Source: Pirellulales bacterium
GTDB taxonomy: Bacteria > Planctomycetota > Planctomycetia > Pirellulales > Lacipirellulaceae
Direction: 5' to 3'
NCBI GenBank assembly: GCA_019636345.1
Contig: JAHBXQ010000001.1
Location: forward strand, 62,001-126,000
Length of the DNA stretch: 64,000 nucleotides
Part shown: piece after piece, positions 16,209 through 25,967 of the stretch
How positions within the stretch are numbered: position 1 is the first letter of the stretch
Layout of the letters: the number at the start of each line of letters is the position of its first letter
Position numbers and translations under genes: made by a program
The notes under the pieces: generated by a model
Told to the model about the DNA's origin: nothing
Seen by the model: only the letters and a program-made list of their open reading frames with translations
The model's database searches: none

Positions 16209-17174
16209 TCAGGGGGTCGCCGCCGGCACGGCGTCGAGGAACTCGTCGACCGACTTGACGAACTGCGGCGCCAGGACGGCCGTCACGTGGTCGGCTTGGG
16301 GGATGACGACCAGCTTCGCGTCCGGCAACATCGCCACCGACCGGCGGACGCTGGGGGCCAACGGATCGGCGCCGCCGACGATTGCCAGCGTCGGCGCCGT
16401 GATTTGCCGCCAATGCTCCGGCGGCTCCTTCGCGTCGGCGGCCAGCATCGGCAAAAAACCGCGGACCATGGCGGCCAGCGCCCGCGAGTCGTTCATCCCC
16501 ATCATCACCATGTCGGCGCTGCGCACCTGGAAGTTGCTCGGCTGCGGCGCTCCGGGGGGGGTGAGCGCCCGCACGAGCGGGGCCATGCTCCCTTGCTTCT
16601 CGAGCGTCGTCGCCAGTTCGGTGAAGACGGCGGTGAACGCCGCGTCGGGCATCAATCCCGCGCCCCCCATCACCAGCGACCGGGTCCGCTGGGGATAGAG
16701 CATCGCGAAGCGCCCCGCGAGCCCGGCGCCCATCGAGTATCCCAGGACGTCGGCCTGTTCGATCTTCAAGTGCGCAAGCAACCGCTCGGCGTCCTTCACC
16801 ATGTTCAGTCCGTACGCCTCGGCATGGCGCGGCTTGTCGCTTTTGCCGTGGCCGCGGCAGTCGAAGGCGACGACCCGTCGCTCCTTCGTCAGAGTCGGCA
16901 AGATCGGTCCCCACTGGAACTCGATGTTCGCCGCGAAGCCGTGGATCAACAGCAGCGGCTCGCCGTCCCGCGGACCCTGGTCGACGTACCGGATCGTCAC
17001 GCCGTCGGAGTCGAAGAACTGATCGGCCGCGGGGGCGGCGGCGGCGCACGTGGCGAGCACCGACGCGAGCACCGACGTGAGCACCGACGTGAGCATCGAC
17101 GTGAGCATCGACGCGAGCAGCGCCAGGCACAGCCCCTCCGGGCGGGCGTTGATCCAGGAATCTCCCTTGGTCAC
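16209..17174 (-). CDS. Secreted alpha/beta hydrolase
   Basis: GTG 17174 is preferred because AGGAG lies 9 bases upstream; it gives 321 residues. A frame continues upstream to a TTG at 17240. The N-terminus holds an unusually repetitive signal peptide (LLASMLTSMLTSVLTSVLAS) encoded by 12-bp tandem repeats, ending near ATCAAAAPAADQ. The hydrolase fold then has the oxyanion HGFAAN, the nucleophile elbow GYSMGAG (Ser147), the acid GGADPL (Asp270) and the base QADHVTAV (His296), in numbering from GTG 17174. The triad is complete. Substrate is unknown; family members include esterases, lactonases and haloperoxidase-like enzymes. Adjacent downstream genes are small membrane proteins. Confidence 0.85.
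   Translation of the reverse strand: MTKGDSWINARPEGLCLALLASMLTSMLTSVLTSVLASVLATCAAAAPAADQFFDSDGVTIRYVDQGPRDGEPLLLIHGFAANIEFQWGPILPTLTKERRVVAFDCRGHGKSDKPRHAEAYGLNMVKDAERLLAHLKIEQADVLGYSMGAGLAGRFAMLYPQRTRSLVMGGAGLMPDAAFTAVFTELATTLEKQGSMAPLVRALTPPGAPQPSNFQVRSADMVMMGMNDSRALAAMVRGFLPMLAADAKEPPEHWRQITAPTLAIVGGADPLAPSVRRSVAMLPDAKLVVIPQADHVTAVLAPQFVKSVDEFLDAVPAATP
17053..17120. repeat. 12-bp tandem repeat inside a signal peptide
   Basis: About five and a half copies of G(C/T)GAGCA(C/T)CGAC run head to tail within the hydrolase gene. They encode a four-residue unit (ML/VL plus TS/AS) repeated through the hydrophobic core of the signal peptide. Because the unit is a multiple of three, copy-number change would lengthen or shorten the signal peptide without breaking the frame. 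Confidence 0.8.
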
Positions 17175-17959
17175 GATCGGCTGCTCCTGCAGAACGGCGA
17201 TTGGGTTTGCCGCGAAGGCGAGCCGGGGGCTCGAAGGCAAGTCGGGGAGACTCGCAGGCGAGCCGAGGGGTCTCGTCGCGGGCGCACCGCAGCGGATTCC
17301 CCGGAGGCAAGTCGCCGGGGGCGCCGGTAGATTCTACGCTCCCCGGCCCGCACGGCGAGAGCGACTTGCCCTCGCTGCCGCAGAACTGTCAAGTCCGAAC
17401 AGTCTCCCGCACCTACGCAGGCAGGCGCCTGCGGTCCCCCTAGGCCAGGACGTCCCGCCACGAGCATGTACGCCGTCCCCGGCATTTACGGGGCAATTCA
17501 CAGGGCGCCGGTGCGTCCGCCGGGAGGCGGCGGGAGATCCGCAAGGGAGACTGGCAGGGGGCTCGTTCACCGCCCGCGGGGGGGGTGAAACGAGAATCGG
17601 CTGAAGCTGGTCCAGATTCGGTTATATCCTATGACCAAAATCTGCGGTCGGTTATTGCAACCGACGTTCGCTTCGTTCGCGACGAAGGACACGCCCTCAT
17701 GACGCACTTCACGACCGTCGGCTTGGCCGCGCAGGAGTGTCGTTTCGACGCAGGTTCAGGAGTTGCATGGGCCTAAATAGGACTGAAGCTTCCCTTAAGT
17801 TCTGACCGAGGCATCAGCCCGCTTCGCACTGTCAAGCCTTCCCCCGGCTCGGCTAAGATCGGATTTCTGCGAAACGTGCCCATAAGCTCAGCTCTCTACC
17901 AATGAACTCCGCAATTCCGTTATCAGCATCATCACGTCACAGGCGCCTGGGGGTCCCCA
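17175..17959. other. Intergenic transition into the low-GC insert
   Basis: The region is 785 bases long. The first ~400 bases are GC-rich like the flanking chromosome. From about 17610 the sequence becomes visibly AT-richer and remains so through the large gene that follows, so the left boundary of the acquired segment is probably near 17600-17800. No integrase, direct repeat or intact tRNA was recognised. Short open frames here lack protein-like composition. Confidence 0.55.
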
Positions 17960-20900
17960 ATGTCAACTATCCATGACACATCAGGCCAGGCGCATCCGTA
18001 TTGGTACGAGTGGTTCGTGGGTCTGGTCGAAGTCGTGAAGCTTCTGAACCCAGACGAAGGCATAGAGAAGGTGGCCTTTCAGGTCGCGGCACTTCAAGGA
18101 TGGGACGATGTAGTAGTCGTACACTCCAACGGCAAGCGCTTTTTCCAGGTCAAACACACGCGCGAAGAACACAACCTAACCTTCGGTAGTTTGGTTGAGG
18201 TAGACGACTCCGGAAAGTCGCTCCTCGGCAGTCTCTTCGAGGGCGCCAGGAACGGCGGACTGCTCGCCCCCGCACACGAGTTGGTCCTCTATACCAATCG
18301 CGAAGACGGCTCACGTTGGTCAACACGTCAGAACGGCGATCGCCGCCCCCCTCTCCTGGAGTTCTGGCAGTGGCTTCAGCAGGAACTTGAGTCAAGCGAT
18401 CTCGCGGACATTTCCGTGCCGTCGGTCGATGACAAGCAATTGGATTACGCACCAGCATGGGGCGAGTGGATAGCCTGCTTTAGGGGGCATAATCACGACG
18501 CGACTGAGTTTCTGAAGCGGCTTCACATCCGAACAAAAGAGGATGACCTGGATGGACTGGAGTCCGACATTCGCACGTCGCTAGCGGATGCGTTTGGGAT
18601 AACCAATGAACAGGCCGCCCCGCTTTTCGATGCGTTGTGCCGGGAACTGCGTACATGGACTACGGGGCACGATGGTGTCACGGTTGAGGATCTTTGCAGC
18701 GCGTTGACCCTCGCGCCGGCGTCAAAAGACTTCGCTCCCGCCCCACCACCTCCATCTCCCTTCTTTCCAACTCGATTGCCCGTCGCCGAGCAGCTGCAAA
18801 GAGACTTGCTCGATGAAAATGTAGAGCCAGTAGTGTTCCTAACTGGAGAGCCCGGGGCTGGGAAAACAAGCGCGGTAAGTTGGCTGGCGAACCGCAGGAC
18901 AGATCAAGCCTTCCAAGGAATCATAGGGGTCAGGTTCTTTTGTTTCGAGCCGATCCGACCAGAGCAGCCGTTTATCTCCCCAGATTCTTCACGCGTCACA
19001 CCGGAAGAGCTGTGGTTATCCCTTTTAAATCAGCTAAGACGAGGGCTCACTGGTCGACTCAACGAATTAAAGGTCCCGTTACGCAACGAGTTCCTTTCGT
19101 GGCAAGAGGCGAGAGAACATGTGTTAAGGCTTGCTGACACCCTCGGACAGGAACTCGGTAGACGATTCGTAATCGCGATTGATGGAATCGACCACGCAGC
19201 ACGTGCCTCGCAGATTCTGCCCGATCAAGTTGGCAAGTTCTTCTCTTCTCTGCCATCGCCGGACGAAACACATTCAAGGCAGATTCGGCTGCTGATAGCC
19301 GGTCAGCCGTCCCAGTACTACATGGACCGGTACCCGACGTGGCTCACGATAGAACATCCGAAAGTCCGTTGCATTGACTTGCCTGTACTTGAGCAGGTTG
19401 ACATCAAGTGCCTCCTCCAGGAGTCGTCTGCACCTCTTAATCGGTCACAAACGGACGACGTAGCGCGCCTAATCAACAGGTACTCGTTAGGTAACACACT
19501 GTCCGTGGTATTTGCTGTTGCAGAAGCCGAGCTGTGCAATACGCTCGAGGAACTCGAGTCACGGCTGGACGCTCGCTCCCTCAAAGATGGGTTGTCCCAG
19601 TACTATGATTCCATATGGACCGATGCGTTAGGCGATGCAAAGGACCTGAGTTGCCCCCTTGCAGGAGCTATCTCACTGGCTCGAACACCGATCACATCGC
19701 AGCAACTATCCAGAATCTTCGGTGTGTGGGAGAAGCCCGTCCCGTGGTGGGAGCAGGTGCTGAATGATCTAGGTCCGCTACTGCGAAGAGAAGGCGACCG
19801 GTACCTCATCAGGCACAACGACGTCCGAGTGTTTCTCGCATCACGGTTCAACGCATTCAATGCGGAAGAGCGGCGAACTGTCGCATCTCAGATCGTTGAC
19901 TACTACGCTGATAGTGCGTCTGATCGCCTTGGCGCACACCTTCAGCTGTTCTCACTTCTAAGGCTCTCCGGTCGCATAGTTGAGGCCGCGACTCTTTTTG
20001 ACGTAGATTGGGTATTGGAAGGTGCAGTGCTCGGAATAGAAGCGAATCAGCTGCATCAAGAAGGGGAAGCAGCGGTAGCCTCACTGCCCTTCGCCAAAGA
20101 CTGGTGTAAGGTGGTCTCAGTGTCTTGCGCACTCGATACTCTTGATCGGGTCAATGAGTTTTCTGAACACTATTTGCAGATCGAGCCATTGCAAAATGAG
20201 TTACCGCCCTTCCTTCCAGCAGAGGCGGGAGTACGTCCACTCGACCAATGGCAGCAAGCGGACTTTCACCAGTTAGTTTGGGATGCCCATGAACTAGTCG
20301 CAGGCGGCGACGACGATCGAGCACTCGGACTCCTGTCCCGTTGGTTGGGCGATTTGCGAATTGACGATGTCGTCAGGGCGATACCAGATCTCTCATCCGA
20401 TGTCACTGGCCGCATTCGTCAAAACGATGAGCCTCGGCTCAGCGACATGGCTGTTAGTGATTTTGAGGTACTCGGGTCACTCTCCGCCAAGTTGAAGTGG
20501 GAGTTCGGGGGGGATTTGCCTCAAGAAGCGCCTGCGATCGAGGAAGATGCCTTCCATGCGTTCGAAAGAGGTTTCGTTGATGAAGTCACTGCGTTGCCAT
20601 CCGTTGGTTCCGCAACTGAGCTCTTTGCTCAACACGAACCACTTTTCTTCACGAATTTCGAGTTAGCCATCCGGAACCTCGCGAAAGCCGAGGCCTGGGA
20701 CATGGTCGCCGAAACCTGCGCCATGATTGAAGACCACATTGGATCACTCAGCAACGAGTTCCTCCTTGAGGCCTCCTGGTACGCATTAAGGGCAGGCGTT
20801 GCGTCGGGATCCGATTGGATTCTGAACGCTGAGCACGCCTGCGAAAAGCTGCCCAGGGTACCGAAGCACCATGCCGGAAGCGACCTCAACCTAGCACAAT

Positions 20901-23698
20901 ACGTGAACACCGCCAGATCGCTCGGATGGAGTAACACCAGCTTGGACACGGGAGACATTGCCGACTTGGTCTACAAGGCCTTTGAGCCACCAGACAAAGA
21001 AGCAGTAATCAACGCGTGGCGGCTGCTTTTTCGTGCAGCTGCGGTCGTAGGGAGGCTAGACCGCTATTCTGCTCAAGCTGATTGGGAATCAGCGTCCGCC
21101 CTGTTTGCACCAGACTATATCCAACAGCTCTTGCAAGCCTTGTGGGGCGACGTCATTTACATGGCGCCATATGAGTTTGTGGGTAGGAAAGAAGCGGCCA
21201 CGCTCGCAGAAGCGCTGGCCGAGTATTGCGGCAAGCTCGGAGGCAGTCATGATCATGCAGCATTCGATGCGGCATTGCCCTTTGCTATGGATGTTGTTCG
21301 TGGTTCGCGGGTTAGGGCAATCTGGGATGTAGTGAACCGACATGGAAGGCTCGATGTGCTCCGAGAGTGGGTTAGGGTGTACATAGGGGACACCGGGAGG
21401 GCATGGGAATGGGCGACGCAGGAAGCAAGAGAAGCCGTCAGGGAGTTTTCACCGCTAGCCCGGTCGATTGGAATGCACGAGGTGGCCGATTATGCCGAGA
21501 GCCGTGCAAGCAACTTGATAGTCGGCTACGTCGAACGAAAAGAGTATTCGTTTTCTAGAACGCAAGACTGGTTTGCGGATGCTGCGCAGAATGCCCCAGA
21601 AATCTGGTCTAGTGAAGGATGGAGGCTTTGGGAGCTGTGTCGCATCTGTGATGAAAAAGGTGGGGATAATCGAGTAGAGTCGGAGATTCTCACGAGCATC
21701 AGCGCCGCTGCAATTCGCTCGGGTAAAATCACTGCTTGGTGGCGTTTGGCTTCGACGACATTCCCAAGAAAGTGCGAGCGAGATTGGCACTATCAGCTGC
21801 GACAGCAATTTGTTGAAGGATTCACGTTAGCTTTAGCGCAAGGTCTGTCCATCAGTGACGACGAGATTCTGCAGACTTGGAGTGTCGCCTTATCGCTGAG
21901 CTACTGGCATGAAAATGGCGATACGTCCGCGCTAATGGCGCTACGAGATGCCTTACTCAAATACGCATCACTTGAGCGAAGAGGCGAGTTCAAAGAGGCA
22001 ATGGGATCGGTAAGTCCGGTCGTATTGAGAAAGAGCGATGAGGAGGATCGTGAGCATTCGACGACTGAAGACCAGGGGTTACCACCCGTTGGGCCGCGGA
22101 GTGAGAGTGAATGGTGGAAAGAACTTGAAGACTTTCTCAAAGACCAGGATGACGAGAGTCGGTATTGGAGGCACGCCAGCGGACTCCTGGCGATCGCGCA
22201 TCGGCGAGCTCAGCAGCACGGCAACGACGCGTTGATCGAAGGACTTCGTGTTCAGCTTGATATGCACATGCGCTGGGCTTTCGGCGGAGAACGGGGAGGC
22301 AAGGTGTCAGCACTCCCCGATGCGCAGCTGGAATCAGCCGATGAGGTCTTCGTAGAGCTTAGCAAGGTACTGCTGGACACATTCAGCGTTGAGGTTACGG
22401 TGGCGGCACTGGAAGGGATCCACAGCTATGTCGCTCAGCGGCCGACCATTATCTCGCGGCTCTTCGACGAAGTTGCTGGTGAATGGCCGCGAAGATGGTT
22501 GCTCAGCGCTGCTGAGTCGTGGGCAGTTCTTTACCCGGATAGTCTTTCAGAGGCCTCGGCAAAGATTGAGAGTTTGCTCCAGGCTGGCGATTTTGTCTGT
22601 CGCCTGCAGGCGTGGATTGTCTTGACCCGAAACGCTCAGGCCTTGGGCGTAGATGGCCCCGCATTCTCGGTGCCTGATAAACCGGAGCGATCTGTGCAAG
22701 AGAGCGACAATTTAGATGGACAATTGCTTGAGATCCCACCCACAGAGCTGGGCTCGGTTAGTCTTGCAAACAAGTTTTCATCAGTTCACATGCTCTTGCG
22801 TTTCTGCGGGCTGTTCGGGTTCCGATTCGAGAAGCTCGAAGGTCTCATTGCCAAGGAGTTGATCGACCAAGTCGACCGCAGCAGTCACGACCGGAAACAA
22901 CACGGACCACACCGCCATGGTGACTTTACGTACGTGACCGCGCAGGCGGAGAAGGCATTCGGGAACGCAGTTAGTTCCATCCTGAGCGCGGACTGGTGCG
23001 GCAATACACAGATAGCGAAGTTGTGCCAAGCGATCCTTCCCAATGAAGACGCCTGGATTCAGCGGAGACGTCCTGGCGCGATCAGGCTCATAGACGACTG
23101 GCCAGCAGAATCTGAGTACGGTGGGCAGGACGTTGATTTGGAAACGCGATGTAAGCGTATGCTGGAAGCAACCAAGGGGGCCTGTGTTGAAGATCGGTGG
23201 AGGGTCATTGCCGCGCGAACGAGGGACTTCACCTGGAAGGAAGACTATGATCTACACTACTGGTTTGAAGAAGCCGAGGATTCCTTTCTCATCACTGTGC
23301 CGAAAGTGCCGACATGCCCCGGCGGAAGATCCTTCGTCTGGTGGATCGGAGAGCCGCTAGAAATTGATCGGGGTCGGTTTGTTTCGGGGCTTTTTGTCGG
23401 CGGGCACCAGAGGTTATCGCACTGTCACTTTGAAATCCGGCCACCGTTGGAGTGGCGCGACGGACTTGGCTGGTTGCCTAACCCTCAAAACCCTCTTGAG
23501 TGGTTTCTTGACGGCGAGGTGGTTGCACGATACGAACGGATACACGGAGCGTTGCGAAGCAACCCACACGGACCGAAATATCGCCAGCCAATCATAGATC
23601 GGTGGATCGTTACGCACTCCGCATTCGATGCAATGCTGAATAGGTACCCGCATCTCCGCGAGAGGCACACATTTGACAGTTGTCAGTTCAAGGATTGA
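17960..23698 (+). CDS. Avs-like STAND NTPase with N-terminal nuclease (predicted anti-phage defence)
   Basis: This is a 1912-residue protein. Residues 12-220 resemble the Cap4/DUF4297 dsDNA nuclease family, a PD-(D/E)xK fold: acidic helix (Glu17, Glu24), Asp49/Asp50 on a strand (WDDVVVV), then the Q-x-K signature FFQVKH (Gln63, Lys65). Residues 270-630 form a STAND-type P-loop NTPase: Walker A GEPGAGKTS (296-304, Lys302), Walker B FVIAIDGIDHA (Asp408, Asp411), sensor strand RLLIAGQPS (443-451) and a winged-helix-like segment ending in IRHNDVRVFLASRF (about 615-631). The remaining ~1280 residues are helical and repeat-like without a recognised motif. This order (nuclease, STAND NTPase, long sensor) is that of antiviral Avs proteins, which bind a phage protein, oligomerise and cut DNA. 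Base composition is clearly lower in GC than the neighbours, which suggests transfer. It stands alone. Defence role is inference. Confidence 0.8.
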   Translation: MSTIHDTSGQAHPYWYEWFVGLVEVVKLLNPDEGIEKVAFQVAALQGWDDVVVVHSNGKRFFQVKHTREEHNLTFGSLVEVDDSGKSLLGSLFEGARNGGLLAPAHELVLYTNREDGSRWSTRQNGDRRPPLLEFWQWLQQELESSDLADISVPSVDDKQLDYAPAWGEWIACFRGHNHDATEFLKRLHIRTKEDDLDGLESDIRTSLADAFGITNEQAAPLFDALCRELRTWTTGHDGVTVEDLCSALTLAPASKDFAPAPPPPSPFFPTRLPVAEQLQRDLLDENVEPVVFLTGEPGAGKTSAVSWLANRRTDQAFQGIIGVRFFCFEPIRPEQPFISPDSSRVTPEELWLSLLNQLRRGLTGRLNELKVPLRNEFLSWQEAREHVLRLADTLGQELGRRFVIAIDGIDHAARASQILPDQVGKFFSSLPSPDETHSRQIRLLIAGQPSQYYMDRYPTWLTIEHPKVRCIDLPVLEQVDIKCLLQESSAPLNRSQTDDVARLINRYSLGNTLSVVFAVAEAELCNTLEELESRLDARSLKDGLSQYYDSIWTDALGDAKDLSCPLAGAISLARTPITSQQLSRIFGVWEKPVPWWEQVLNDLGPLLRREGDRYLIRHNDVRVFLASRFNAFNAEERRTVASQIVDYYADSASDRLGAHLQLFSLLRLSGRIVEAATLFDVDWVLEGAVLGIEANQLHQEGEAAVASLPFAKDWCKVVSVSCALDTLDRVNEFSEHYLQIEPLQNELPPFLPAEAGVRPLDQWQQADFHQLVWDAHELVAGGDDDRALGLLSRWLGDLRIDDVVRAIPDLSSDVTGRIRQNDEPRLSDMAVSDFEVLGSLSAKLKWEFGGDLPQEAPAIEEDAFHAFERGFVDEVTALPSVGSATELFAQHEPLFFTNFELAIRNLAKAEAWDMVAETCAMIEDHIGSLSNEFLLEASWYALRAGVASGSDWILNAEHACEKLPRVPKHHAGSDLNLAQYVNTARSLGWSNTSLDTGDIADLVYKAFEPPDKEAVINAWRLLFRAAAVVGRLDRYSAQADWESASALFAPDYIQQLLQALWGDVIYMAPYEFVGRKEAATLAEALAEYCGKLGGSHDHAAFDAALPFAMDVVRGSRVRAIWDVVNRHGRLDVLREWVRVYIGDTGRAWEWATQEAREAVREFSPLARSIGMHEVADYAESRASNLIVGYVERKEYSFSRTQDWFADAAQNAPEIWSSEGWRLWELCRICDEKGGDNRVESEILTSISAAAIRSGKITAWWRLASTTFPRKCERDWHYQLRQQFVEGFTLALAQGLSISDDEILQTWSVALSLSYWHENGDTSALMALRDALLKYASLERRGEFKEAMGSVSPVVLRKSDEEDREHSTTEDQGLPPVGPRSESEWWKELEDFLKDQDDESRYWRHASGLLAIAHRRAQQHGNDALIEGLRVQLDMHMRWAFGGERGGKVSALPDAQLESADEVFVELSKVLLDTFSVEVTVAALEGIHSYVAQRPTIISRLFDEVAGEWPRRWLLSAAESWAVLYPDSLSEASAKIESLLQAGDFVCRLQAWIVLTRNAQALGVDGPAFSVPDKPERSVQESDNLDGQLLEIPPTELGSVSLANKFSSVHMLLRFCGLFGFRFEKLEGLIAKELIDQVDRSSHDRKQHGPHRHGDFTYVTAQAEKAFGNAVSSILSADWCGNTQIAKLCQAILPNEDAWIQRRRPGAIRLIDDWPAESEYGGQDVDLETRCKRMLEATKGACVEDRWRVIAARTRDFTWKEDYDLHYWFEEAEDSFLITVPKVPTCPGGRSFVWWIGEPLEIDRGRFVSGLFVGGHQRLSHCHFEIRPPLEWRDGLGWLPNPQNPLEWFLDGEVVARYERIHGALRSNPHGPKYRQPIIDRWIVTHSAFDAMLNRYPHLRERHTFDSCQFKD

Positions 23699-24118
23699 TG
23701 CCGTGTTAAAAGGCGTTTAGGCATTATCAACGCCCGACACTTGGCATGCTTGGCCCTTCTGAGACGACGTACATCCTCTTCAGTGAAATTTGATTTCTCA
23801 ATCGCTAACTCTCTCCGTTTTTTCGCGCCACTCCGTTTGTCGTCGATCGTGATTTAGACTGCGTCGGCCGTAAACGCCGAAGGCAGCTATGGAGAGCCGG
23901 AAGAGCGCCAAGGACGAACCGTCCTGGGGTGCATGTGGGCAACTCAAGACTCTGCGTTCGATGGCCTGGGCCGTCGCGAGCTTCTCACACTTGCGCCATG
24001 ACAGCGGTCGCATCGCCCCGCCAGCTTCTGAGAACCAGCCTTAGCCGCAGCGGGGGACTCCGCCGCCGGGGTTTGGGTGCAACAAGCGGAGGAGACGCGT
24101 CGATTCCCCCGGAGGCCT
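23699..24118. other. Intergenic region at the right edge of the insert
   Basis: The region is 420 bases long between convergent genes. The first ~150 bases keep the lower GC of the Avs-like gene and GC rises again after about 23900, so the right boundary of the insert probably lies here. No gene, direct repeat or transposase was recognised. Confidence 0.5.
23712..23734 (+). terminator. Hairpin just after the Avs-like gene
   Basis: GGCGTT and AACGCC form a 6-bp stem around an 11-base AT-rich loop, starting 14 bases after the stop codon. No clean T-tract follows, so termination is plausible from position but not assured. Confidence 0.3.
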
Positions 24119-25789
24119 TCACTCAGCCGGCTTGTCGATTTCGGTCACCAGGACTTTGAATTCGTACACCGCCGGGCGGCCGGTCGGCATGTCGCGCGAC
24201 ATGACCCGGCCGACGTAGATCGCCCCCGGTTGGGCGTCGAGGACGGTCGTCCCCGGCGGCCGTGACGGCGAGCCTTGGCTCGGTTTCACGATTTCCGCGT
24301 CGGACTTCAGCGCGTCGAGTTTCGTCAGGTCCAAGTGCTCGAACTGTTTCTTCCAAACTTGCGGCGCATTGGGGCCGGCGGATTCCGACGCTTCGTCGGT
24401 CGTCGTGCGGGTCGGCTTCCATCGCCCGACCCAGCCGGTTCCCGATCCAGGGAAGTACATCTGCTCCGTCACGTGCAGTTCGAGCGCGGGGCCTGTCTGC
24501 GTGAACCGCAGCCACGGGACCCCCGGGCCGTACGGGCCGTAGGAGGGTCGGCCGCCTTGGGGGCTGACCAATTCGGCCTCGCCGGAGGTGACGCTCTCGG
24601 ACGTCGCTTCGGGGCTGCCGGGATAACCCACGACCTTGACCCGCCAAGCGACGAGGGCTTTTCCTGTGAGCTGCCGGTGCAGCGTCAGCTTGGCGCCCAG
24701 CCCGACGACGCCGGGGGCGACCTCGAGCGGTTCGAACGCCTGGTTGTATCCCTCGCGCGTCCCGACGAGGCGGTAGTTGCCGGGAAACAACTGGAATTCG
24801 GCGTTTCCTTGGGCGGAGGTCTTCTGGGGCGCCGCCGGTTCGTCGCCGCGGCCGTCGACGTCTTGGACCGCGATCATCGTCTCGGCCAGGGGTTCGCCGC
24901 TGGCGTCGACCACGTCGACCCGCGCCACGACCCGGTCGGCGTCATCGTACCGCTCGACACGGAACCGGCCGGCATCCTCGGCGCCGAGCGTCGTGGCGCG
25001 GAACTCGAACTGCGCGCTCTTGAGCCCCGGGGCCGCGACGTTCAGCCGACACGGATCGTCTCTCGAGGAGCGATTCCGCAGGAACGTGAACAGCACGTAC
25101 CCGTCGGCGAACGATTCGAGCTTCTCGCGGTTGCCGTTGCAGGAAATGCGCAGCGCCGTGGAGGGGATCCCCGCGTCGTGTTGATCGACGACTCGGAAAT
25201 ACGCCGCGTGCAGTTCGCCGTCCTCGAAGAACGAAGCCCCGCCGGCCGCCGCGGCGACCTGATCGAGCCGCTTGATCAACTTGGGGGGCAGCAACTCGGT
25301 GCGGATGCGCTGCTCGATCTGTGCCGCCAACTGATCGACCAATCCGGGATAGACCCCGGCGATCGCCGCCCGGCGAGACTGGAACACGTCCCGAGCGCCC
25401 TTGCCGTACCCGGCGTCGACCAGACTGCGCGCGTACCAATAGGCGACGCGCGGATCGTCGGGGGCGAGGCGATACGCCTCGGACAGCAACCCCGCCGCAT
25501 GCCCGTCGGCGCCGTGGGTCAGCCGGGTTTCAAGCGCCTTGAGCAGCAGCCGATCGGCTTGCCCCGCTTCCTTCACGGCGGAGTCGGTCACCATGGCGAC
25601 CTCCTTGAAGGGGACCCGCAGCTTGGCTCCCCCGACGTCGATCACCAGTTCGGCGCCGTCCATCGCGACTTCGCCGACGATCACGGCGCCCGACTGCAGC
25701 GTGACCTGCTGGCCGGCGGGAGCGACCCGCGGCAGCGCCGTAACGAGCATGCCGACGAGCATCGTCGTCCGCCGAATCGAGGCGTTCAT
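24119..25789 (-). CDS. Secreted protein with TPR-like and carboxypeptidase-regulatory-like parts
   Basis: The product has 556 residues from ATG 25789, which has GGAG at proper spacing; the frame is open 18 codons further up. A signal peptide (MLVGMLVTALPRVAPAG) is followed by a beta-rich part (QQVTLQSGAVIVGEVAMDGAEL) that resembles exported FxxT/SH3-like sequences of planctomycetes. A TPR-like helical stretch (LLSEAYRLAPDDPRVAYWYARSLVDAGY) comes next. The middle contains a carboxypeptidase regulatory-like beta sandwich (ARVDVVDASGEPLAETMIAVQDV, then FQLFPGNYRLVGTREGY). No catalytic residues are visible. It is convergent with the Avs-like gene. It is probably periplasmic or cell-surface; function unknown. 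Confidence 0.75.
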   Translation of the reverse strand: MNASIRRTTMLVGMLVTALPRVAPAGQQVTLQSGAVIVGEVAMDGAELVIDVGGAKLRVPFKEVAMVTDSAVKEAGQADRLLLKALETRLTHGADGHAAGLLSEAYRLAPDDPRVAYWYARSLVDAGYGKGARDVFQSRRAAIAGVYPGLVDQLAAQIEQRIRTELLPPKLIKRLDQVAAAAGGASFFEDGELHAAYFRVVDQHDAGIPSTALRISCNGNREKLESFADGYVLFTFLRNRSSRDDPCRLNVAAPGLKSAQFEFRATTLGAEDAGRFRVERYDDADRVVARVDVVDASGEPLAETMIAVQDVDGRGDEPAAPQKTSAQGNAEFQLFPGNYRLVGTREGYNQAFEPLEVAPGVVGLGAKLTLHRQLTGKALVAWRVKVVGYPGSPEATSESVTSGEAELVSPQGGRPSYGPYGPGVPWLRFTQTGPALELHVTEQMYFPGSGTGWVGRWKPTRTTTDEASESAGPNAPQVWKKQFEHLDLTKLDALKSDAEIVKPSQGSPSRPPGTTVLDAQPGAIYVGRVMSRDMPTGRPAVYEFKVLVTEIDKPAE

Positions 25790-25967
25790 CGCAACATCTC
25801 CGTGACTTCGCGTGACGAGAGGAGCGCCGAACTGCCGGCGCAAACAACGCGGCGCCGCCGGGATCGACCCCGTCGACGCCGCGTCCGTATTATGCCAAGC
25901 CGTGCGGCAAATTGCGCCGGGAACTTGTCACAAGTTTGTCACAGGGCCGCGGCCATGCCGGCAACGG

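Follow-up and report, generated by a model that had tools for sequence, protein, structure and literature searches.

Avs3 and Avs4 act as tetramers, and proteins of the Avs class carry an N-terminal effector, a central STAND NTPase and a long C-terminal sensor in one polypeptide. Cap4 of CBASS, LmuA and the HerA-associated DUF4297 nuclease belong to systems with other sensor or partner modules in place of the STAND domain and superhelix; in Lamassu, for example, the LmuA gene adjoins a gene for the SMC-like protein LmuB. Avs1-4 are described as effectors with nuclease activity: once they have recognised terminase, portal or Ksap1, they cleave the genomes of phage and host (PMC12931631). Avs1 is described as consisting of Avs1b with a fused protease and a partner nuclease (PMC12799240).

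Here we analyze a gene of the Avs type found in a 64-kb stretch of DNA from a Pirellulales bacterium, hereafter the window. In our assessment, it quite probably encodes an NLR-like receptor against phages, a one-gene system of the Avs kind from a family without a name in the sequence libraries searched, and works in an Avs3-like manner, probably by sensing terminase and cutting DNA. At the level of sequence and prediction, the gene is intact, the residues of nuclease and ATPase are conserved, the predicted fold of nuclease, ATPase and sensor is Avs3-like, and the gene was acquired by insertion; further support comes from relatives that lie beside defence genes, on plasmids and on a prophage contig. 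The protein would represent a further branch of the bacterial NLR-like receptors, conserved and widely distributed, which lacks a name in the sequence models searched.

The gene (positions 17960-23698, forward strand) is a single, uninterrupted open reading frame with an ATG start and 1912 codons for amino acids, and its neighbors in the window are ordinary genes, recognized by eye as guaA, surE, a hydrolase and enolase. It lies alone in a low-GC island at 17550-23950 (no strand assigned; edges approximate), which was delimited by GC in 150-bp steps and by an empty site in G001, a genome of the same genus. The GC content of the gene is 0.550 and its GC3 is 0.588, compared to a GC3 of 0.849-0.913 in four nearby genes, and just one of 117 overlapping 5.7-kb stretches of the window, namely the gene's own, has a GC content as low. 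In G001, the two flanking genes of the insert are direct neighbors on a single contig: the homologues of the hydrolase (66% identical, C307:3823-4683) and of the frame at 24119-25843 (53%, C307:2141-3721) have about 100 bp between their matched parts; further on, the contig carries a second homologue of 24119-25843 (43%) and the end of enolase. G001 is 72% complete; contig C307 nonetheless spans the insertion site. A search of the gene's own genome with the 1912-residue protein matched the gene itself and nothing else, and the same search gave no match in any of 96 other related genomes. Among 392 genomes of the phylum, it matched the gene's own genome and one other (L007 in G371), and because L007 resembles a helicase P-loop by eye, it was rejected as a relative and only the gene's own genome was counted. 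The more sensitive N-terminal profile A8 matched nine other genomes of the 392, in no case below profile residue 183, which leaves the nuclease core uncovered. The first-pass annotation had described a transferred gene of lower GC than its surroundings, and had named conservation at the same site in all related genomes as the observation that would speak against this; since GC3 is low, the site is empty in the congener and the gene is absent from the relatives searched, we conclude that it was acquired by insertion, as a recent arrival.

An imperfect 21-nt direct repeat (76%) is located at 17288-17308 and 24096-24116, just outside the low-GC island, and is a possible trace of insertion; we do not claim it as a target-site duplication, because other repeats in the list are at least as good. 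Five tandem 24-nt copies with a 12-nt register occupy 17055-17126, at the start of the hydrolase frame on the opposite strand, and are not part of the match to the G001 hydrolase homologue, which begins at residue 57.

Sequence libraries identify the N-terminal half of the protein as a nuclease followed by a STAND NTPase. Pfam matched AAA_22 to residues 291-451 (E 4.8e-9, above the cut-off), together with AAA_16 and NPHP3_N on the same stretch, and Cap4_nuclease to residues 14-94 (E 8.7e-4, under the cut-off), while PADLOC matched its LmuA effector model to residues 16-245 (E 1.8e-9) and a model of a CBASS-type effector endonuclease with E 5.8e-4. No Avs model was among the PADLOC matches at E up to 1, NCBIfam, including Avs1b, gave zero matches at the same limit, and phmmer against the PDB returned a single chance match (E 1.1). 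The Cap4-type nuclease comprises approximately residues 13-249 (17996-18706), with E17 (18008-18010), D50 (18107-18109), Q63 (18146-18148) and K65 (18152-18154), and the STAND NTPase with the helical/winged-helix part that follows comprises approximately residues 255-650 (18722-19909), with the P-loop lysine K302 (18863-18865), the Walker B residue D408 (19181-19183) and HND at residues 619-621 (19814-19822), which we take to be the counterpart of the NLR MHD motif; all of these features are on the forward strand. These residues, as well as D49, G299, G301 and T303, are invariant throughout the 31 rows of the full-length alignment, which is composed of the window protein, L002, 28 loci with closed frames and L030, and the same nuclease and NTPase residues are invariant in 35 of 35 rows of the N-terminal alignment. 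The earlier reading of a 1912-residue protein with a Cap4/DUF4297-like nuclease (D50, Q63, K65) and a STAND domain (K302, D408) is therefore upheld, and the residues it named are not chance occurrences.

The predicted structure agrees with this domain assignment. In the model of residues 1-654 (mean pLDDT 89.6), E17 lies in the first helix and QxK ends the third strand, and over the first 112 residues helices and strands follow one another as in PD-(D/E)xK nucleases. The top match of this model in a Foldseek search of the PDB is 8dgc_A, Avs3 with terminase (E 2.5e-14), and Avs4 (8DGF) is 16th (E 1.6e-6). In the VIA list, 8dgc_A comes 7th (Z 14.6, 447 aligned, rmsd 10.4, model residues 3-536), being outranked on the NTPase part by six chains (MalT-type, Apaf-1, plant NLR and other STAND proteins), and the nuclease domain is matched by Cap4 (7yib, Z 14.5, 210 aligned, rmsd 3.5, model residues 7-247), the HerA-associated DUF4297 nuclease (9c1m, Z 12.6) and LmuA (9nxx, Z 12.4). 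The N-terminal likeness to Cap4-type nucleases, which had been set as a test beforehand, is thus found with Pfam, with PADLOC and in the model fold.

The C-terminal half contains a helical superhelix, the predicted sensor, at residues 713-1746 (20096-23197, forward strand), and a strand-rich part at residues 1747-1912 (23198-23695, forward strand), which is seen in the alignments and in the model; here at least 90% of the rows of the full-length alignment A5 keep R1881-W1882, as does every row of the sensor alignment A9. KEY at residues 1194-1196 likewise counts among the conserved residues of the sensor. The model of residues 713-1912 has a pLDDT of 82.2 and a pTM of 0.72 and is mostly helical, in keeping with the helical C-terminus of about 1280 residues in the first-pass annotation, except that the end is rich in strands from about residue 1747 onward. 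Foldseek places 8dgc_B (E 1.0e-9, TM by query 0.39) and 8dgc_A (E 1.9e-9, TM by query 0.38) far ahead of the next match (2.5e-3). The VIA comparison likewise gives 8dgc_A, with Z 10.0, 924 aligned and an rmsd of 7.5, pairing model residues 1-1199 with Avs3 677-2049, followed by a designed armadillo protein (Z 9.0, 261 aligned). Although a Z of 10.0 is below the VIA caution level for helical repeats (~13), the coverage and the gap in Foldseek E-values persuade us to accept an Avs3-like sensor fold. Avs4 is not among the 50 best Foldseek matches listed for the sensor, and such an absence excludes nothing, just as families missing from the VIA lists, including Avs4 for the sensor, are not excluded thereby. 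The C-terminus had initially been called unrecognized, with the suggestion that it could sense a phage protein different from those of the described Avs1-4; the former view has to be revised, because the region is recognizable by its predicted fold, for which the terminase-bound Avs3 is the top match over nearly the whole length.

As far as the predicted fold tells, the protein would work in an Avs3-like way. The C-terminal superhelix would bind a conserved phage protein, of which the large terminase subunit, as in Avs3, is the foremost candidate, with the fold pointing to it at roughly even chances. The STAND domains would then exchange nucleotide, the ATP-bound forms would assemble and thereby bring the N-terminal nucleases together, and these would cut the double-stranded DNA of host and phage, upon which the infection would abort. 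A like fold does not establish a like ligand, and the same machine might have another trigger, the Avs3-like sensor having been re-tuned from terminase to portal, capsid or an early protein. We regard this as a possible but rather doubtful alternative. It is consistent with a sensor sequence that is the family's own, without similarity to Avs3a, and with lower conservation than that of the N-terminal half (on average 34% column identity in A9 vs 45% in A8), as well as with the sensing of portal, Ksap1 or JADA by other Avs types (PMC12931631). On the other hand, terminase-bound Avs3 heads the Foldseek list for the sensor by a wide E-value gap, and no hypervariable stretch of the sensor was seen in the eight closest pairs except for the last residues. 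An Avs3-like receptor that probably senses terminase is the reading that we prefer. It is also conceivable, if somewhat unlikely, that the sensor keeps the Avs3 superhelix and reads a phage protein beyond those of Avs1-5, with the same nuclease across at least seven phyla. If this is true, one scaffold has been given a new target with its nuclease effector unchanged. The question has thereby become testable: is recognition carried by the fold, so that terminase is still read, or has the scaffold been re-aimed?

Scanning 84,980 species genomes with the N-terminal alignment yielded 48 related loci. By our own reading of the frames, 28 of these are closed and encode 1944-2027 residues, four have frames of 1252-1766 residues, six run off the contig and ten show just 30-269 residues. 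Eight loci from gut and other genomes (L046, L049-L052 and L054-L056) have short frames with only the conserved N-terminal start and are perhaps decayed. Relatives were found neither in genome contigs scanned with the window protein alone nor in viral contigs, for which both this protein and alignment A2 served as queries, and the N-terminal alignment was therefore required to find them. A tblastn search of 72,556 plasmid records (E up to 1e-5) gave 12 matches, 11 from Leptospira and one, distant, from Pseudanabaena; the Leptospira interrogans protein in L002 is full length, with 1963 residues and 26% identity over a 1290-column alignment. Two Leptospira noguchii copies (L004:8037-13076 and L003:8004-9848) lack the nuclease; they were considered as effector swaps, which we rejected, reading them as truncated, with the N-terminus missing. 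In L. interrogans strain D64, the frame stops after about 614 residues, and a gene for an IS3-type transposase lies just downstream. Among 50,697 phage records, tblastn found no match to the window protein (E up to 1e-5) or to L026 (E up to 0.01). One copy, L042 from a Clostridium polynesiense genome, is cut by the end of its contig, which a catalogue lists as viral; this copy directly follows two frames that appear by eye to encode serine recombinases.

A quick tree of the N-terminal half was built from 39 rows (the window protein, 34 of the 48 loci and four plasmid proteins). The 34 placed loci span seven named phyla, including Bacillota, Planctomycetota and Verrucomicrobiota. Two Gemmataceae sequences are the partners of the window protein (SH-aLRT 100), and the clade around them is mixed, with members from Verrucomicrobiota and one from Desulfobacterales. 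Pairs with a support of 100 are also formed by L030 (Planctomycetota) and Salinicola and by L013 (Verrucomicrobiota) and L014 (Desulfobacterales), and the Bacillota rows mostly cluster (2 changes). Such mixed-phylum pairings fit horizontal spread, and contaminated bins could mimic the same pattern. A literature search of titles and the starts of abstracts, with most subscription papers outside its scope, found no description of the family. Judged by sequence, this is a widespread protein family without a name in the libraries searched.

The surroundings of the relatives were compared by calling 329 flanking frames within 6.5 kb at 35 loci, the window and L002 among them, and grouping them by BLAST (E 1e-5). 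The largest group of similar frames, ABC-type ATPases by eye, occurs in 4 of the 35 loci at most, so a fixed partner is absent, as far as crude frame calling and BLAST tell, and the gene does indeed appear to have no companions, as was first proposed. A set of 13 familiar-looking neighbor proteins from 12 loci was chosen by eye for scanning and carries neither a rate nor a control set. These hand-picked neighbors include pVip-kinase at L013 (E 7.6e-117), AbiEii beside L017 (E 4.3e-99), L037 (E 4.5e-119) and L034 (by Pfam), type III restriction at L024, type III methylation at L039, type I restriction at L032, a CBASS cyclase at L038, TIR at L045, the YhcG nuclease at L029 and, at L015, a weak STAND match only. 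At L013:6653-8206, a prokaryotic viperin carries a fused kinase-like domain; this gene lies upstream of the Verrucomicrobia copy, about 1.8 kb away. The Salimicrobium copy (L012) is flanked on both sides by genes with a TniQ domain (L012:6914-8425 and 16862-18202), an arrangement that would fit the cargo of a Tn7-like element.

Several relatives adjoin defence genes, then, in a hand-picked set without controls, which accords with the defence role originally assumed for the gene. Together with an effector nuclease of the kind in CBASS and Lamassu models and with the copy at the end of the contig catalogued as viral, this argues against a STAND-nuclease that guards against things other than phages, such as plasmids or DNA stress, or that regulates cell death. 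We consider such a role unlikely, even though STAND domains serve other signaling proteins too, MalT and Apaf-1 in the VIA list among them, and some copies are plasmid-borne. Least probable, to the point of being improbable indeed, is an acquired gene that is decaying or inactive and serves no function at present, since the 1912-residue frame is intact and keeps all invariant residues, even if the ten of 48 loci with frames of 30-269 residues only indicate that decay, or the misreading of poor contigs, occurs in the family.

The preferred reading, an Avs-type receptor with an Avs3-like way of working, can be set against the described systems. Two Avs2 models had no match in the window's genome, and the family profile aligned to an Avs2 protein over the P-loop only (25 columns, prob 3.7). 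The likeness to Cap4 of CBASS (7YIB), LmuA and the HerA-associated DUF4297 nuclease (9C1M) is confined to the nuclease domain. The gene differs from Lamassu in that the LmuA model ends at residue 245, whereas the frame continues as STAND domain and sensor, and in that no partner recurs among the 35 loci.

The likeness to Avs1b (NF041810, PDLC02159) and to the Avs1b-like plasmid proteins L083 and L084 lies in the NTPase. Avs1b models match 6 of 20 members of the family (best E 5.7e-12 in PADLOC and 1.3e-11 in NCBIfam); of four members tested singly, two match, over the NTPase and with scores far under the 1500-bit cut-off. NF041810 matches in 28 of 149 phylum genomes were not counted as Avs1b, all being under the cut-off. 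The family profile aligns to L084 over 661 columns (prob 99.6), to column 790, and to L083 over 1054 columns (prob 99.5), to column 1213, which is into the sensor region. In a local hmmsearch, the N-terminal profile detects L114, L115, L083, L084 and L006, while the sensor profile detects none of these and no Avs3a (best E 2.6). L114 (G116 contig 91) and L115 (G400 contig 42) were rejected as family members, because they have the NTPase in common (E 1.4e-45 and 1.4e-32) and do not match the sensor profile. All five are STAND proteins of about 1,700-2,060 residues with other N-termini and sensors, and L083 adjoins a gene annotated Dsr1. Because the N-terminal profile sees these STAND relatives and the sensor profile sees none, the NTPase belongs to a larger Avs1b-like group, present on plasmids and in the window's phylum; the sensor has a sequence peculiar to the family, perhaps weakly linked to L083, and a predicted shape like that of Avs3. 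Avs1 itself combines Avs1b, to which a trypsin-like protease is fused, with Avs1a, a nuclease of the MBL fold encoded upstream. The window protein is arranged differently, with a Cap4-type nuclease at its N-terminus, and no gene recurs next to its family.

Avs3 (SeAvs3, 8DGC) is the closest described system in architecture. No match to the Avs3a model PDLC02167 occurs in the window's genome, and 294 genomes of the phylum contain one, L102, whose identity as a genuine Avs3a is shown by phmmer (E 3.4e-52 to SeAvs3). The family profile gives a weak collinear match to L102 in the nuclease and NTPase (597 columns, E 7.9e-5, prob 61), the NTPase being remotely Avs3a-like, and the family sensor profile has no detectable similarity to it (40 columns, prob 2.5); a profile search of the PDB did not find 8DGC/Avs3. 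Because the Avs3 sequence model is unmatched, we do not file the window protein as Avs3 on sequence grounds. The two nevertheless resemble each other in being one protein of similar length (1912 residues in the window vs ~2,090 in Avs3) with the common order of nuclease, STAND domain and superhelix. The window protein has a Cap4/DUF4297-type nuclease at its N-terminus and a sensor that is predicted, at a modest Z, to have the Avs3-type fold, and Avs3 is the top Foldseek match of both of its halves.
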